Source: a bacterium | GTDB lineage: Bacteria; CLD3; SB21 | Assembly (NCBI GenBank): GCA_013360215.1 | Contig: JABWCP010000003.1 | Coordinates: 1-64,000, forward strand | DNA length: 64,000 nucleotides | Reading direction: 5' to 3' | Shown here: piece after piece, positions 54,372 through 63,475 of the stretch | Layout of the letters: every line of letters starts with the position of its first letter | How positions within the stretch are numbered: the stretch's first letter is position 1 | The notes under the pieces: generated by a model | Databases searched by the model: none | What the model was told of the DNA's origin: nothing | What the model saw: only the letters and a program-made list of their open reading frames with translations | Made by a program: the position numbers and the translations under genes

Positions 54372-54457
54372 GCCGAAGTGGTGGAATTGGTAGACGCGCT
54401 GGACTCAAAATCCAGTTGGGCTCAAACCCAGTGAGAGTTCGAGTCTCTCCTTCGGCA
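54372..54457 (+). tRNA. tRNA-Leu (anticodon CAA)
   Basis: The acceptor stem GCCGAAG (54372-54378) pairs with CTTCGGC (54450-54456), with discriminator A54457. The anticodon stem (54399-54403 with 54411-54415) holds anticodon CAA at 54406-54408, decoding UUG. A long variable arm (TGGG/CCCA) and the T-loop GAGTTCGAGTC confirm a class II tRNA-Leu. The CCA end is not encoded. Confidence 0.97.
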
Positions 54458-54498: not shown

Positions 54499-54824
54499 TT
54501 TCTCTCAATTAAAAATCTCGCATCGTATTTATTAAAAAATACACCACGATAGTTTGAATTTTATGTCAATTTCTGACAAAAAAAGGCCTTAGAGTTATAT
54601 ACGACGTAGTATAGAAACGACAGCCAATAAAAAAAACCCGGTTTTAATTATCCAATTTTCTTTTAGTGATTAAATAAATCCCTTATTTTCAATTGGTATA
54701 AATCGCGCACGATTTACTTGCATAGCCCGATTTCACGATATACATTAATAGGTCTCTCAGTAAAATATCTCCGAGTGAAGAAATCTCTTAATCGAAACGG
54801 AGAGGAATCAATTCGTCAATAAAA
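54499..54824. other. 326-bp AT-rich stretch between tRNA-Leu and the tracrRNA
   Basis: No gene, tRNA or repeat could be seen on either strand. The stretch is clearly richer in A/T than the flanking host genes. It may hold remains of an integration or be a spacer ahead of the CRISPR-Cas locus. Confidence 0.5.
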
Positions 54825-54858
54825 TAAAAAAGGCTCTACTGCTTTCGCAGGCAGAGCC
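54825..54858 (-). terminator. Terminator of the tracrRNA
   Basis: On the minus strand, GGCTCT (with further pairing CTGC/GCAG inside) pairs with AGAGCC, and the stem is followed by six T (complement of 54825-54830). It forms the last hairpin of the tracrRNA. Confidence 0.9.
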
Positions 54859-54922
54859 CAAGACTTTTCATCTGCGGCATATAGCCTTATTGTGAAAAGA
54901 TTTCAAAGGTGTGATTTGATCA
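54825..54922 (-). ncRNA. tracrRNA of the type II-C CRISPR-Cas system
   Basis: Read on the minus strand, this gene starts near 54922 (7 bp past the -10) and ends at a terminator at 54825-54858, giving about 97 nt. The anti-repeat lies at 54890-54912: 14 bases (54899-54912) are exactly complementary to the crRNA repeat, followed by a 4-nt bulge and a second 5-bp pairing block (54890-54894). Then come CACAATAAGGC and the small nexus hairpin AAGGC-TATAT-GCC, GCAGATGAAAAGTC and a strong stem. CAATAAGGC directly after the anti-repeat is characteristic of type II-C tracrRNAs such as that of Neisseria. It is transcribed divergently from cas9. Confidence 0.88.
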
Positions 54923-54924
54923 CA
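54910..54924. promoter_or_regulatory. CRP/FNR-like palindrome at the start of the tracrRNA
   Basis: TGTGAT (54910-54915) and ATCACA (54919-54924) form a perfect palindrome around TTG. It resembles a CRP-type site with a spacer one base shorter than usual. It covers the predicted tracrRNA start and the first bases of the anti-repeat, and lies about 50 bp before cas9. As RNA it can fold into a 5' hairpin. Which of these applies is not known. Confidence 0.4.
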
Positions 54925-54928
54925 AACT

Positions 54929-54957
54929 AAGATAATATCAGATTCGTCGTTTGTCAA
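54929..54957 (-). promoter_or_regulatory. Promoter of the tracrRNA
   Basis: On the minus strand a perfect -35 TTGACA (54957-54952) and a -10 TATCTT (54934-54929) are separated by exactly 17 bp. The -35 box lies only 9 bp before the cas9 ribosome-binding site, so the two genes share a very small divergent control region. Confidence 0.75.
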
Positions 54958-54975: not shown

Positions 54976-57900
54976 ATGGGAAAAACTCTTGGGTTGGATT
55001 TAGGCACTAATTCCATCGGATGGGCCTTAGTTGATAACGAACATAAGCAAATCATAAAAACCGGTGTTCGTATCTTTCCGGAGGGCATCAATAGGGATAC
55101 TAAGGGTTCTGAAGTGTCAAAAAATGAATCACGAAGACTAGCCCGCCAAGCGCGTCGAAATAATTTCAGAACAAAGATGCGGAAATCAATACTTAAAAAA
55201 GCGTTGATTGCTAATGAATTGTGTCCAAATGGCGATACGTTAACCGATTGGCATGCGCTAAATCCATACGAACTCAGGTCGCGAGCGTTAAAGGAAAAAT
55301 TATCACTTCACGAAATAGGCAGAATCTTATATCACCTTTCGCAACGCCGAGGCTTCAAAAGCAGTCGAAAAACGGCCAATGATAAAAATGAAGGAAGCAT
55401 ATTTGACGGAGATGAAAAAATCGGAAAAACGGGTATCAATGAAACAAGTGATTTCATAGCAAAACATGGAACCCTTGGGAATTACCTTGCCTCATTGGTT
55501 CCTGACAAGAAACCTTACAATCAACTGAAAAGGATACGTAATCGTTATACAACCCGTGATATGTATATTCACGAATTTCAGATCGTATGGGAAGCTCAAT
55601 CAAAGTATTATCCCACCGCCTTAAATAATGAACTTCGTGATACGATAGGACATCCTGAAAAGGGGATTTTGTTCTTCCAACGCCCACTAAGATCGCAGAA
55701 ATTTCTTATCGGCAAGTGTACGCTTGAAAAAAAGAAACCACGCTGCCCCTCCAGTGCGCTTCCTTTTGAAGAATTTCGCGCATGGCAATTTATTAATTCG
55801 ATACAGCGCTGGAACTCTAACGGTGAAATCATCAATTTTTCAACAGAAGAGCGACTCGCTATCTTAGATGTTATCAATACTTCCGAAAAAGCTTTCGAAT
55901 TCAAAAAAATACTCAACAAAATTGATAAGAAGAGGTTATATAGATATAACTACGTACCCGATCACACCGTACCGGCAAACCCCACACATGCCGGGCTGAT
56001 CAAGGTCTTTGGAAACAAATTATGGAATGCCATGACTGAAGATGATAAAGAAACTATTTGGCATAACTTATTTATTGCCAAAGAAAATGAATGGCTTAAA
56101 GGAGAAACAAATTCCAATTCTCACAGATGGTCCGATCGAGCAAAGGTGCTTGGCTTGTCAGATGAACAGCTTGAAAAGCTTTCCAAAATACATCTTAAAG
56201 ATGATTATGCCAACCTTAGTCGCAAAGCGCTCAACAATATTTTGCCCTTCCTACGCATCGGCTTTATTTATTCGACAGCTGTTTTGTTCGGCGGCATAAA
56301 AAACGCCCTTGGGCTATTGTGGGATGAATTGAGCGAAGAATCTAAAAATAAAGTAATAGAAGAAATCAACAATCTTAAAGAGTCCAATACCGACGAAAGG
56401 CTAAACGAGCTAATAATAACTTATTTGATCAAAAGATTCTCACTCTCTCCGACCCAATTAAAAAAACTTTATCATCACAGTGATGATGAGGTTTTGAGAA
56501 AGCCTGAATTAGAAGAGTTGCCCCAGCCTAAAAACCTTCGCAATCCACTCGTTCAACAAGCATTATATGAGCTACGTAATCTTGTTAATCACATTATTAA
56601 GCAATATGGAAGACCCTCCGAAATCCGGATTGAACTAGCTCGTGATTTGAAAAACCCAAAGAAAAAACGTGACGAGATGCGTTTTGAAAACAAACAACGA
56701 GAAAGAGAAAATACTAGGATCAAGCTTGAGCTTGAAAAACTAGGTGAACTACCATCTCGTGACAATATTCAAAAATATGCGCTATGGGAAGAATGCAAAA
56801 AACAATGCCCTTATACGGGTAAAGAAATAAGCGTTACCGATCTTTTTGGGAACAAGTTTCAGATTGAACATATTATTCCGTGGAGTGTTTCTTTAGATGA
56901 CTCTATGGCCAATAAGACCTTATGTGAGGCCAATGAAAATAGAAATAAGGGCGATCTAACGCCATATCAGTATTACGGGAAGAACCTCGAAAAATGGGAT
57001 GAAGTTAAGCGTAGAGCGTATGACTTACTCCCAATGTATAAATATAAACGATTTATTCGTGAAGAAATGGCCGCTCCGGATGATTTTATAGCCCGCCAGC
57101 TTAATGATACGCGTTATATCAGCCGTGAAGCCAAACAATACCTTAGTCATGTATGCAAAAACATATTGGTTACCAAAGGCCCCTTGACGGCAGAATTGCG
57201 ACACTACTGGGGTATGAATTCTATTTTGAATCCGTCAGAAAATAAGAAAAGCCGCGATGATCACAGACATCATGCTGTAGATGCTATCGTTATCGCGTGC
57301 AGTAAAAATTCACATTTTCAAGAACTTCGATCTTGGAATAAGTATCGAAAAAGCCATGAAAATCATAATTTTCCTGAACCATGGAAAGGTTTTCTTGATG
57401 AGGCTAAACAAAGTGTCGAAAGCATACTTGTTTCTCACAAGAACAGACATCGTTTGTTATCTACAACTAAGAAAAAAATAGTTAAAGATGGGAAAAAATT
57501 TACCGGACAAGGTGTGTCCGCTCGGGGTACGCTTCACGAAGAAACCGTATATGGGAAAAGAAAATCTCCATTCGGAGACGAACATTTTTACACAGTTAGA
57601 AAACCTATCGGAAGTCTTACTCCCGCTATGATACGAGACAAGATCGTTGACCCTGAAATCCGTAAACTGATATGGGAACGTCTAATGAAGTACGACATAA
57701 ATCCTAACGATAAAAAATTTGAAATACCCAAAGACGCGTTTGCTAAACCGATATACTTACGAAACAAAAATGGCGACCCTGTACCGGTTTTTAAGGTGAG
57801 AATTCGTGTCGAATCATCAAATATACTTCAGATGCGAGAAGGGGTTAATCAATGGGTTGATCCCAAAACAAATTTGATGGTTATTTTATATCGTGATCAA

Positions 57901-58287
57901 CAAGGAACATTGTATGAAGAAGTTTTAAATTTTTTTGAAGCAACAAAAAGAAAAATCAATAAGCAATCGCTTATTAGTATTCACGAAAACAAGCAGTACT
58001 TTGAATCTATTCAAAAAAACGACCTTTTCGTACTTGGGTTAGCTAAGTCACAATTCAGAACTTATTTTTCAAGGCCTGACATCCTAAGCAAACATCTTTA
58101 TAAAGTAGAAGCTATTTCATCAAAGTATTATGAGTTTAGGCTTCACTGCGAATCAACTCAAAAAAACAATGATTTCCCGGAATACCTTATAATTAGTAGC
58201 TTGGGAGCAGGAAAAAAAGGTTGGCTAACTTTTAATCCAATAAAAGTAAAAATTGACCCATTAGGAAACATTGTCGAGGATGCTTAA
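54976..58287 (+). CDS. cas9: CRISPR-associated endonuclease Cas9, type II-C
   Basis: A compact Cas9 of 1103 residues. The start is ATG 54976, with GGAGG 5 bases upstream; ATG 54964 would overlap that site. RuvC-I has the catalytic Asp D8 in LGLDLGTNSIGWAL; an Arg-rich bridge helix (RRLARQARRNNFRTKMRK) follows. RuvC-II has E553 in IRIELARDL. HNH shows H632 in QIEHIIPWS and Asn in NRNKGD. RuvC-III has H766 and D769 in HHAVDAIVIA. The REC region has LFFQRPLRSQK, usual in type II-C. Two Cys precede the HNH (ECKKQC). Codons are more A/T-rich than in neighbouring genes. All catalytic residues are intact, so active double-strand cutting with crRNA:tracrRNA is expected. Confidence 0.97.
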   Translation: MGKTLGLDLGTNSIGWALVDNEHKQIIKTGVRIFPEGINRDTKGSEVSKNESRRLARQARRNNFRTKMRKSILKKALIANELCPNGDTLTDWHALNPYELRSRALKEKLSLHEIGRILYHLSQRRGFKSSRKTANDKNEGSIFDGDEKIGKTGINETSDFIAKHGTLGNYLASLVPDKKPYNQLKRIRNRYTTRDMYIHEFQIVWEAQSKYYPTALNNELRDTIGHPEKGILFFQRPLRSQKFLIGKCTLEKKKPRCPSSALPFEEFRAWQFINSIQRWNSNGEIINFSTEERLAILDVINTSEKAFEFKKILNKIDKKRLYRYNYVPDHTVPANPTHAGLIKVFGNKLWNAMTEDDKETIWHNLFIAKENEWLKGETNSNSHRWSDRAKVLGLSDEQLEKLSKIHLKDDYANLSRKALNNILPFLRIGFIYSTAVLFGGIKNALGLLWDELSEESKNKVIEEINNLKESNTDERLNELIITYLIKRFSLSPTQLKKLYHHSDDEVLRKPELEELPQPKNLRNPLVQQALYELRNLVNHIIKQYGRPSEIRIELARDLKNPKKKRDEMRFENKQRERENTRIKLELEKLGELPSRDNIQKYALWEECKKQCPYTGKEISVTDLFGNKFQIEHIIPWSVSLDDSMANKTLCEANENRNKGDLTPYQYYGKNLEKWDEVKRRAYDLLPMYKYKRFIREEMAAPDDFIARQLNDTRYISREAKQYLSHVCKNILVTKGPLTAELRHYWGMNSILNPSENKKSRDDHRHHAVDAIVIACSKNSHFQELRSWNKYRKSHENHNFPEPWKGFLDEAKQSVESILVSHKNRHRLLSTTKKKIVKDGKKFTGQGVSARGTLHEETVYGKRKSPFGDEHFYTVRKPIGSLTPAMIRDKIVDPEIRKLIWERLMKYDINPNDKKFEIPKDAFAKPIYLRNKNGDPVPVFKVRIRVESSNILQMREGVNQWVDPKTNLMVILYRDQQGTLYEEVLNFFEATKRKINKQSLISIHENKQYFESIQKNDLFVLGLAKSQFRTYFSRPDILSKHLYKVEAISSKYYEFRLHCESTQKNNDFPEYLIISSLGAGKKGWLTFNPIKVKIDPLGNIVEDA

Positions 58288-59173
58288 ACGAACCGTTTAC
58301 ATCACCAATCCTTTTCACATCAGTTGCCGTCTGAAACAACTGATATTGACACCTAAAGAGGATGGTAAAGAAACTACCATGCCCGTCGAAGATTTGGGTT
58401 TTGTGATATTGGATCATCCTAATACGACCATCACATTGGCCGCTTTGCAGGAACTTCAAGCCAATAACACGGCGGTGATTGTCTGCGATGCAAAGCATCT
58501 TCCTGCCGGATTACTATTGCCATTAGAAGGACATTATCTGCATAGTGAACGATTAGCGACTCAAATACAAGCTTCAGAACCGCTCAAAAAACAACTGTGG
58601 CAATATACCATCAAATACAAAATACGAAATCAAGCTAAACTTTTAGAAAGCTTGGGGTATCCGTTTGAAGCGGTAAAACGTCATGCAGACGAGGTCAAAA
58701 GCGGCGATACTTCAGGAGAGGAAGCCAAAGCGTCGCGTCATTATTGGAAAAATTTATTTCCGAATATGGACTTTCGGCGCGATCCTGACGGTGCATGGCC
58801 TAATGCCGCGCTTAACTACGGATATGCTATTTTGCGTGCTGCGGTCGCCCGTGCTCTTGTGGGCAATGGATTGCTTCCGGCACTTGGGATTTTTCATCAC
58901 AATCGGTACAATGCCTATCCATTGGCGGATGATATGATGGAGCCTTATCGTCCTTTTATAGACAGCTGTATTGTTGAAATTATCAACGACATGCGGGATA
59001 CAACCGAACTTAATAGAGAAATCAAAGCGCGGTTGATACATACCCTATCATCGGATGTAAAAATGCTGGGCGAGAGAAGTCCCATGTTAGTGGCCATCGA
59101 AAGAACGGCCACGTCGCTCTCAAAAAGTTATGAAGAAAACATACGACAGCTTCTCTATCCTGAAATGAATTGA
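58280..59173 (+). CDS. cas1: CRISPR integrase Cas1, type II
   Basis: A 297-residue Cas1, the catalytic half of the Cas1-Cas2 spacer integrase. The start ATG 58280 overlaps the cas9 stop by 8 bp and gives the usual LKRTVYITNP opening; a TTG at 58271 with AGGA before it is an alternative. The active-site region includes Glu in GEEAKASRHYW (E147/E148), His in ALGIFHHN (H206/H207) and the Asp/Glu in LADDMMEPYRPFID (D218, E221). This fits Cas1 of type II-C loci. Confidence 0.95.
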   Translation: MLKRTVYITNPFHISCRLKQLILTPKEDGKETTMPVEDLGFVILDHPNTTITLAALQELQANNTAVIVCDAKHLPAGLLLPLEGHYLHSERLATQIQASEPLKKQLWQYTIKYKIRNQAKLLESLGYPFEAVKRHADEVKSGDTSGEEAKASRHYWKNLFPNMDFRRDPDGAWPNAALNYGYAILRAAVARALVGNGLLPALGIFHHNRYNAYPLADDMMEPYRPFIDSCIVEIINDMRDTTELNREIKARLIHTLSSDVKMLGERSPMLVAIERTATSLSKSYEENIRQLLYPEMN

Positions 59174-59199
59174 CCGCTTAATCATTGACGAGCCGCACT

Positions 59200-59538
59200 A
59201 TGCAGTTCGACCGAATTAATGCGTACCGAGTTATGTGGGTTTTTGTTTTTTTTGATCTCCCTACCGAAACTAAACCTGAGCGCAAAGCCCATGCGCAGTT
59301 TCGTAAAGAATTGATGAAAGACGGCTTTACGATGATGCAATTTTCAGTGTATGTGCGTCACTGCGCCAGCGCAGAAAGCGCGGAAGCGCATATTCGTCGC
59401 GTCAAAGCTTTTATGCCCAAAAAAGGCCATGTCAGTATTTTGCGTATTACCGATAAGCAGTACGGAGATATACTCAATATCTGGGGCGCCAAAACCGAAC
59501 CACTTGAATCACCGCCTGCCCAGTTGGAATTTTTCTAA
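59200..59538 (+). CDS. cas2: CRISPR-associated protein Cas2, type II
   Basis: A 112-residue Cas2, structural partner of Cas1 in spacer capture. The start ATG 59200 is preferred; the frame is open to 59185. The ferredoxin-like fold begins with VMWVFVFFDLPTETK (conserved Asp D19) and continues with FRKELMKDGFTMMQFSVYVR, a family signature. It lies 26 bp after cas1. No csn2 or cas4 follows, which makes the locus type II-C. Confidence 0.95.
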   Translation: MQFDRINAYRVMWVFVFFDLPTETKPERKAHAQFRKELMKDGFTMMQFSVYVRHCASAESAEAHIRRVKAFMPKKGHVSILRITDKQYGDILNIWGAKTEPLESPPAQLEFF

Positions 59539-59608: not shown

Positions 59609-59646
59609 AAAAAGATGCCCTTTATTGCAAAAAGAGCATCTTTTTT
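59609..59646. terminator. Bidirectional terminator between cas2 and the array
   Basis: GATGC (59614-59618) pairs with GCATC (59636-59640), with an inner CTTT/AAAG block after one mismatch. The stem has a run of six T on its right (59641-59646) and A-rich sequence on its left. It can stop the cas operon rightward and the array transcript leftward. Confidence 0.75.
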
Positions 59647-59707: not shown

Positions 59708-62182
59708 AATATCGTTCATACACCTTTGAAATCAAACCACAACCGGCTTGCCCATTGCTCAACATTACGCTTTAATATCGTTCATACACCTTTGAAATCA
59801 AACCACAACGATTTTTTTGGCAATCGCTGTTTTAGGCTTAATATCGTTCATACACCTTTGAAATCAAACCACAACAGAGTGCGTTATTTGACGGTTGTTT
59901 CCCTCAATATCGTTCATACACCTTTGAAATCAAACCACAACTGTTTGATTCTTTAAGTTGCGTTATCGTAGAATATCGTTCATACACCTTTGAAATCAAA
60001 CCACAACCTTCAGTTTGCGATTCAAATGTTTCCGATGAATATCGTTCATACACCTTTGAAATCAAACCACAACAGTACTCATGCCGTCGTTCCGGTTAAA
60101 CCGAATATCGTTCATACACCTTTGAAATCAAACCACAACTAAAGTCCAGTATCTATCGTTTCCGCCGTCAATATCGTTCATACACCTTTGAAATCAAACC
60201 ACAACAACGCTGGGCTTTAAAGGTTTATACGATGCAATATCGTTCATACACCTTTGAAATCAAACCACAACGATAGCCATTCTAAATCGTTTCACGTTTC
60301 TAATATCGTTCATACACCTTTGAAATCAAACCACAACAAACGGCAAGGAAAGTAATACAAGAATATAAATATCGTTCATACACCTTTGAAATCAAACCAC
60401 AACCCGATCAGGCTTTTGTATTCGGCGTCTGCCAATATCGTTCATACACCTTTGAAATCAAACCACAACAGACCACTTTCCGGCTATTTTATCGGTTATA
60501 ATATCGTTCATACACCTTTGAAATCAAACCACAACACAATACCTTCAGCAATGCTGGCAGCCTTTAATATCGTTCATACACCTTTGAAATCAAACCACAA
60601 CAGACAGTGTGCGTGAGACAACCGTAGAAGAAATATCGTTCATACACCTTTGAAATCAAACCACAACCAGTTTGTACATCCTGCGGTGCGGCGGTGAAAT
60701 ATCGTTCATACACCTTTGAAATCAAACCACAACATTGTGATACGGACAGTATTTTTACTCCTAAATATCGTTCATACACCTTTGAAATCAAACCACAACG
60801 TGAAAAAGATTTATCCAAAGAACGGTTTAAATATCGTTCATACACCTTTGAAATCAAACCACAACTGTCCATGTCTGTGAGTTAAAGTCAAATCAAATAT
60901 CGTTCATACACCTTTGAAATCAAACCACAACGCTATTCATGACTATAAATTTGCTCGGTTGAATATCGTTCATACACCTTTGAAATCAAACCACAACTGT
61001 TCGTGTCGGCTTAAAAAACGGTACGGTAATATCGTTCATACACCTTTGAAATCAAACCACAACCTTTTAACAGCTTGCCTATAATGACAAGCTAATATCG
61101 TTCATACACCTTTGAAATCAAACCACAACTTGAGCGCCTATCAGAATGTTGTCAGGATAAATATCGTTCATACACCTTTGAAATCAAACCACAACCTCCA
61201 CGCAGGGAGTTTGCCGGACTCTTTGAATATCGTTCATACACCTTTGAAATCAAACCACAACAACCGGCAATAAAAGACCTTAGTGAGAGCGAATATCGTT
61301 CATACACCTTTGAAATCAAACCACAACAGATCCGGAAACAGGAAAAATGGTTCACTTAATATCGTTCATACACCTTTGAAATCAAACCACAACTGAACGT
61401 AGCCGCTGGTGTGCACGATATGCAATATCGTTCATACACCTTTGAAATCAAACCACAACCGAAGTCGTTGCAGTGAATCAGGTACGTCTAATATCGTTCA
61501 TACACCTTTGAAATCAAACCACAACTCACTTAGATTCGGCCCGGCTTGTCCAAATAATATCGTTCATACACCTTTGAAATCAAACCACAACCCAACCGTG
61601 CAATTCGTCGCCATCTTTACAATATCGTTCATACACCTTTGAAATCAAACCACAACCGACCAATGCGATCATCATTATGATTGTGAAATATCGTTCATAC
61701 ACCTTTGAAATCAAACCACAACCACGCGACGTGGTTACCGATAGTGTCGCGAATATCGTTCATACACCTTTGAAATCAAACCACAACTGATATAGGTGCA
61801 TCATAACTTTATATACGAATATCGTTCATACACCTTTGAAATCAAACCACAACTATTCATCGCGTGATACGTCGCTCATACTCAATATCGTTCATACACC
61901 TTTGAAATCAAACCACAACAGTCCTTCAGTCCACGATACATTCATAGTAAATATCGTTCATACACCTTTGAAATCAAACCACAACCGTGAGGAAATCATC
62001 GCCATGATGGACGCTAATATCGTTCATACACCTTTGAAATCAAACCACAACCCACCACGCTTCTCTACATCGCGCGATAAAATATCGTTCATACACCTTT
62101 GAAATCAAACCACAACCAGAAGCAATTGAACTTAAAGCGCACATTGAATATCGTTCATACACCTTTGAAATCAAACCACAAC
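59708..62182 (-). CRISPR. CRISPR array, type II-C, 38 repeats and 37 spacers
   Basis: Thirty-eight 36-bp repeats appear identical, from AATATCGTTCATACACC to CAAACCACAAC on the plus strand; the period is 66 bp. Spacers are 30 bp, except three of 29 bp (before repeats 30, 32 and 37, that is at about 61592, 61723 and 62052). In crRNA sense (minus strand) the repeat starts GTTGTGGTTTGATTTCAAAG, which is the normal type II beginning, and it pairs with the tracrRNA anti-repeat. The array is therefore read from right to left. No degenerate terminal repeat is present at either end, and no spacer is duplicated. The spacers show no match that I could see to other parts of the window. Confidence 0.98.
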
Positions 62183-62282
62183 CGTGTAACTATAAATAAA
62201 TTATTCTTTGTAAAGATCGCTCAAAGATTATCGAAATTAAACAACAAAATACTTTTGTTTATCTCACCGAAGCATTCCCAAT
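62183..62282 (-). promoter_or_regulatory. Leader of the CRISPR array
   Basis: About 100 bp of AT-rich sequence flanks the right end of the array, upstream in the sense of crRNA transcription. On the minus strand it includes TTTACA followed by TATTTATAGTTA near the first repeat, a possible promoter with imperfect spacing. Spacer acquisition is expected at this end. Confidence 0.6.
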
Positions 62283-62338: not shown

Positions 62339-63475
62339 TCAGGCTTCCGCACCTTTGAAAGGTTTGAATTCGATCCAGTCATTTTCTTTGAAAATGTCTT
62401 TCAACAGTTCACGATCTTTATCAGTGGGCAATACCGTTTCGCGATAGGTCTTGTATTGCTCTTCACTCAAAAGACGACCGTCCACTGTGTACGGCTGTTT
62501 GGCATGCAGACCGATGCTGCGGTTAAACTTTACATCGGGCACGATCAATTTGGGCATTTCGCGAGGGATCAGAGTATTCATGTCCTCCACGAGTTTGCTG
62601 ATCTCGGCGATATACAGATCGCGTGCAAGCTGATTGAGTTTGTCTTTCTGCACTTCTTCATCCGTCTCATGTTCATTAAAACGACCTTTGAGACCCCATA
62701 CATATGCCCAGTGCGCGTTGGACGAATTATCCGTTCCGAAAAGATCGTAGGCGGTAGGAACCCATTTGTTAAAATATTTCTGAATAATCTCGACCGGTAT
62801 TTTGCCCGCTTTGATGATACGCTTGAGGCCGTTATTACCTGTGCCAAGGTGAAATGATTCTTCTTTGAGCATAGGATTCATACTCATCGAGAGCGGCATA
62901 AATGCCGAATGGCTCAGCATTTTGAGCTGAAACTTACCGTCCCGATCAATGAATTCGGTATAGGTGTAAAGATCGAGCCAGTTTTCCATCACTTCATTAA
63001 ATGAACCCAGTAACCGTTTTTGTTCAAACGCACGGCGCTCCAGGAGTTTCATCGCTTCTTTGCGGCCGGCATCGCCGAAGTGCGTCACTAAGATGTGACT
63101 CATTTGCCAACCGTGGCGCATTTCTTCCGCGTTAATACGCATCAGCGCATAGAGATCGTAATCGCTGGGCGCACGATCCACCAGATACCGCTGCTGTTCG
63201 ACCGAGGCAAATTCCGTATCGCCTTGGAATACGATCAACTGCTGCAACGCATCGCGAATACCCTGATTGGGTATGTCCAGCACGCGTTCCCACTTACGAT
63301 CACCTCTAAAATCGCCGAATTCGATTTCGTTGTACTTCAGCGCTTCGTACTTGGGTTCCAATTTGTAGTTGGGAAGAAACCGCTTAAAAGTTTTTTCATC
63401 ATAGCCGATGTCTTTTTTCCATTCTTGGAAAAGATCAATCCAATCGTCAAATGTGGAAACCTGTGCTTTGATCAT
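62339..63475 (-). CDS. Ferritin-like diiron oxygenase of the PaaA/BoxB group
   Basis: A 378-residue protein of the phenylacetyl-CoA/benzoyl-CoA epoxidase family. The four-helix diiron site is visible: Glu in QGDTEFA near 88, E118 and H121 in AEEMRHGWQ, then E206 and H209 in KEESFHLGTG; a further Glu lies in TYTEFID near 174. It resembles BoxB and PaaA more than ribonucleotide reductase. No partner subunits (PaaB-E or BoxA) are seen, but the window ends 500 bp further on. A TetR regulator gene lies directly upstream on the same strand and may control it. Confidence 0.8.
   Translation of the reverse strand: MIKAQVSTFDDWIDLFQEWKKDIGYDEKTFKRFLPNYKLEPKYEALKYNEIEFGDFRGDRKWERVLDIPNQGIRDALQQLIVFQGDTEFASVEQQRYLVDRAPSDYDLYALMRINAEEMRHGWQMSHILVTHFGDAGRKEAMKLLERRAFEQKRLLGSFNEVMENWLDLYTYTEFIDRDGKFQLKMLSHSAFMPLSMSMNPMLKEESFHLGTGNNGLKRIIKAGKIPVEIIQKYFNKWVPTAYDLFGTDNSSNAHWAYVWGLKGRFNEHETDEEVQKDKLNQLARDLYIAEISKLVEDMNTLIPREMPKLIVPDVKFNRSIGLHAKQPYTVDGRLLSEEQYKTYRETVLPTDKDRELLKDIFKENDWIEFKPFKGAEA

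Follow-up and report, generated by a model that had tools for sequence, protein, structure and literature searches.

Organization of the Locus

The window, meaning the whole stretch of 64,000 nucleotides that was analysed, contains a CRISPR-Cas9 locus in which three cas genes on the plus strand are followed by a CRISPR array. The protein-coding and array features are as follows:

54976–58287, plus strand: cas9, 1103 aa, with RuvC-III and HNH detected (TIGR01865, 635 bits)
58280–59173, plus strand: cas1 of type II (TIGR03639, 289 bits), with an 8-nt overlap with the end of cas9
59185–59538, plus strand: cas2, an open frame with a Cas2 domain from about residue 17 (domain match)
59609–59645, no strand assigned (called minus by the scan): hairpin between cas2 and the array, with an A-run before it and a T-run after it
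59708–62182, crRNA strand minus: CRISPR array of 38 identical 36-nt repeats and 37 different spacers of 29–30 nt
62213–62248, minus strand: degenerate repeat with 11 mismatches at the cas-distal end

The reading frames of cas9, cas1, and cas2 are all intact. The start codon of cas9 is placed at 54976, behind a GGAGG motif, in preference to 54964. The encoded Cas9 has the RuvC and HNH domains of a type II-C protein; type II cas1 and cas2 adjoin its gene, and neither csn2 nor cas4 is present beside them. The locus is flanked by genes for a DUF2851 protein and a PaaA/BoxB-like protein. The latter (62339–63475, minus strand) scores 234 bits against a BoxB cut-off of 499 and is perhaps a non-standard BoxB. 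A tRNA gene (54372–54457, plus strand) lies immediately upstream of the CRISPR locus and was the only match in an Rfam search, which returned no match to a tracrRNA family. Integration of an island at this tRNA was considered and set aside, as the expected integration scar, a duplicate of the tRNA 3′ end, was sought within the window and not found.

The tracrRNA Gene

Between the tRNA gene and cas9, the minus strand contains the predicted parts of a trans-activating CRISPR RNA (tracrRNA) gene:

54826–54922, minus strand: tracrRNA, about 97 nt predicted (fold; match at E = 7.3e-9 to a covariance model of tracrRNAs from other organisms)
54929–54957, minus strand: sigma-70-like promoter of the tracrRNA, TTGACA-N17-TATCTT (10 of 12 consensus matches)
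54889–54912, minus strand: anti-repeat, consisting of ACACCTTTGAAATC (54912–54899), an internal loop TTTT, and CACAAT (repeat match, co-fold, genome-wide 14-mer count)
54876–54888, minus strand: nexus hairpin AAGGCTATATGCC (AAGGC the same in all 10 loci compared, base pairs preserved in 9–10 of 10)
54826–54859, minus strand: terminator hairpin with T-run (both-sided changes that keep pairing at 8 of 13 consensus pairs)

The initial annotation had described a complete tracrRNA gene at this site, with a minus-strand promoter of 17-bp spacing, an anti-repeat, a nexus, and an intrinsic terminator, and every one of these elements is present. Transcription is predicted to start at about 54921–54923, roughly 53 nt ahead of the cas9 start codon, with the −35 box 18 bp ahead of it. 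The run of six T residues at 54826, after the terminator hairpin, is the predicted 3′ end, and the RNA would thus measure about 96–98 nt. This agrees with the earlier estimate of about 97 nt, but the implication that such an RNA is unusually short did not hold, since the length is ordinary beside the 99-nt tracrRNA used for F. psychrophilum (PMC12609912) and the approximately 73–74 nt reported for C. jejuni (PMC4607530, PMC3656092).

A perfect inverted repeat, TGTGATTTGATCACA, spans 54910–54924 at the predicted tracrRNA start and resembles a CRP/FNR-type site, except that it has five central bases and not six. It was rejected as an operator, as none was seen in the upstream sequences of relatives that were read and its length is short enough for chance.

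Pairing with the CRISPR Repeat

The anti-repeat is complementary to the 5′ portion of the crRNA repeat and is followed by the nexus and terminator hairpins. The segment ACACCTTTGAAATC is an exact 14-base repeat match and is succeeded by a TTTT/AAAC mismatch block, CACAA, and one G:U pair. The 14 and 5 exact bases reported earlier were therefore correct, whereas the supposed 4-nt bulge is a symmetric internal loop, either 4 × 4 or, with one extra G:U pair, 3 × 3. The duplex has a predicted energy of −28.6 kcal/mol, and co-folding of crRNA and tracrRNA returned, as expected, lower and upper stems with the internal loop between them, then the nexus and the terminator. The array accounts for 38 exact copies of the 14-mer in the 3.72-Mb genome, and the tracrRNA site is the only other one; the longest repeat match in the rest of the window is 11–12 nt.

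The specificity of this pairing was compared among related systems in a 17 × 17 matrix of duplex energies, each repeat against each anti-repeat. The cognate partner was best for 15 of 17 repeats, that of the window among them. The cognate sum was reached in none of 20,000 permutations, a test that favours cognate pairs where anti-repeats had been picked by repeat match, as some of the 17 were; those of the window and of loci L010, L011, and L017 had been located through the nexus motif or in the initial annotation. A cognate preference of this kind is what joint change of repeat and tracrRNA would give, and such joint change has been reported for Campylobacter (PMC4607530).

Conservation of the Nexus and Terminator

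A covariance model was built from nine tracrRNA candidates located upstream of cas9 in other organisms, with the window left out. It matched the window at 54909–54826 on the minus strand with 51.6 bits, the runner-up reaching 16.5 bits, and in a genome-wide search the tracrRNA site was the sole strong match (E = 4.2e-7); the model holds just three base pairs, and the score comes mostly from conserved sequence. This test, which is independent of the repeat, is stronger than the repeat match. When the nine loci and the window were aligned, AAGGC of the AAGGC..GCC nexus hairpin was unchanged in all ten, and the both-sided compensating changes were all within the terminator stem.

Placement of the tracrRNA among Relatives

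A contig search for relatives of the window Cas9 gave 37 loci with a two-row alignment and none with a single-sequence scan. In 32 related loci that were fetched, the position of the tracrRNA was assigned from a match to the repeat or from the nexus motif (L028 and L051 by motif alone; L020 and L023 were excluded as ambiguous). It lies upstream of cas9 on the opposite strand in about 23, upstream on the same strand in 7, and downstream in 2. The sample is centred on the window Cas9 and so is informative on its relatives rather than on type II systems as a whole. The position just before cas9 and on the opposite strand was correctly noted at the outset, but it had been called less common than downstream placement; among the relatives fetched it is ordinary and the commonest arrangement. 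In R. anatipestifer, the anti-repeat is also upstream of cas9 (PMC5006608).

Orientation of the CRISPR Array

Since a tracrRNA must be complementary to its crRNA, the strand of the anti-repeat fixes the crRNA strand as minus, as had been proposed, and the array runs towards cas2. The array is thus predicted to be transcribed against the cas genes, the convergent arrangement that is usual in type II-C (PMC4607530). For transcription in this direction, the degenerate repeat at 62213 is at the proximal end, where such repeats are common in II-C arrays (PMC4607530). The hairpin at 59609–59645 could end transcripts from both sides, which would suit two convergent transcripts. All three 29-nt spacers sit within the third of the array that is farthest from the cas genes.

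A repeat 3′ end that resembles a −10 box is common, although not universal, in type II-C. The 3′ end of the present repeat reads GATATT, with TTGATT 16 bp upstream, and the two together have only 8 of 12 consensus matches. They are a weak candidate for repeat-borne promoters, which have been mapped in C. jejuni (PMC3656092).

Alternative Interpretations

Complementarity to the repeat might arise by chance in a region that contains no tracrRNA gene. The promoter match, taken alone, is at chance level (two promoter-like sites in the region versus 2.8 ± 1.7 in shuffled sequences), and the terminator scan, also taken alone, is about background. Against this stand the covariance-model match, the unique genomic occurrence of the 14-mer, the covariation, and the cognate pairing. 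Coincidence is in effect refuted by the relatives, in which nexus and position are conserved, and we consider its probability negligible. It is also very improbable, though somewhat less so, that the gene is a silent remnant of a system that is no longer expressed. Such a state would fit the spacer searches, in which the 37 spacers gave no clear target in a phage collection (among the matches listed, chance level only, best E about 0.8) or in the remainder of the host genome. But every tracrRNA element is intact, as are the reading frames of cas9, cas1, and cas2, and upkeep is suggested by an array whose 38 repeats are identical and whose 37 spacers all differ.

A further reading concerns the cas9 transcript, which might begin within the tracrRNA gene or upstream of it; the cas9 leader would then run antisense to the tracrRNA, and each could regulate the other. 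No plus-strand promoter-like site was found between the tracrRNA and cas9, and the sole one in the region for cas9, at 54739–54766, lies beyond the tracrRNA gene; if it were used, the leader would be antisense to the entire tracrRNA. Equally tight packing of tracrRNA and cas9 is found in several relatives. We regard this reading as unlikely.

Identity and Proposed Mechanism

We conclude, with a probability of about 95%, that the feature encodes the tracrRNA of a complete and probably working type II-C CRISPR-Cas9 locus. The earlier assignment to a type II-C Cas9 is borne out by the unique 14-mer, the covariance-model match, the cognate pairing, and the cas9-cas1-cas2 set without csn2 or cas4. 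By analogy with known II-C systems, RNA polymerase would transcribe the minus strand from about 54922 and stop at the T-run at about 54826. The 5′ part of the tracrRNA is predicted to pair with bases 1–24 of each minus-strand crRNA repeat, and RNase III would trim the resulting duplex. The nexus and terminator hairpins would keep the duplex in Cas9, which, with the duplex as guide, would cut DNA that matches a spacer. Transcription, processing, loading, and cleavage are all modelled here on characterized II-C systems.

The gene is a routine component of an immune system that is already known, here in a new organism, and it leaves the understanding of type II systems unchanged. With this gene, the set of parts for an uncharacterised compact II-C Cas9 (1103 aa) is complete, and the Cas9, the crRNA strand, and the tracrRNA can now be written down.

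Comparison with Known Systems

The closest Cas9 relatives found are from Bacteroidota, at about 41–42% identity, and no similar Cas9 was found in the other eight genomes searched of the host's small phylum (one of nine overall). For these two reasons, horizontal acquisition of the locus is plausible. Long tracrRNAs that act as natural single guides (tracr-L) are described for type II-A (PMC11417352). The II-C loci of Campylobacter, Neisseria, Riemerella, and Flavobacterium likewise have cas9-cas1-cas2 only; in this comparison, the window Cas9 is just distantly related to the Cas9 proteins of solved structure. In Bacteroidota II-C loci, such as L017 (Bacteroidales) and L010 (Chitinophagales), the tracrRNA is likewise on the opposite strand just upstream of cas9, and Bacteroidota II-C tracrRNAs have the same lower stem CACAA(U/C), AAGGC..GCC nexus, short hairpin, and terminator. 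In L010 and L017, the repeat has the same ends as that of the window, GTTGTGGTTTGAT and GATATT, but a different middle, and the uninterrupted upper stem of the window tracrRNA, at 14 bp, is longer than that in either locus.
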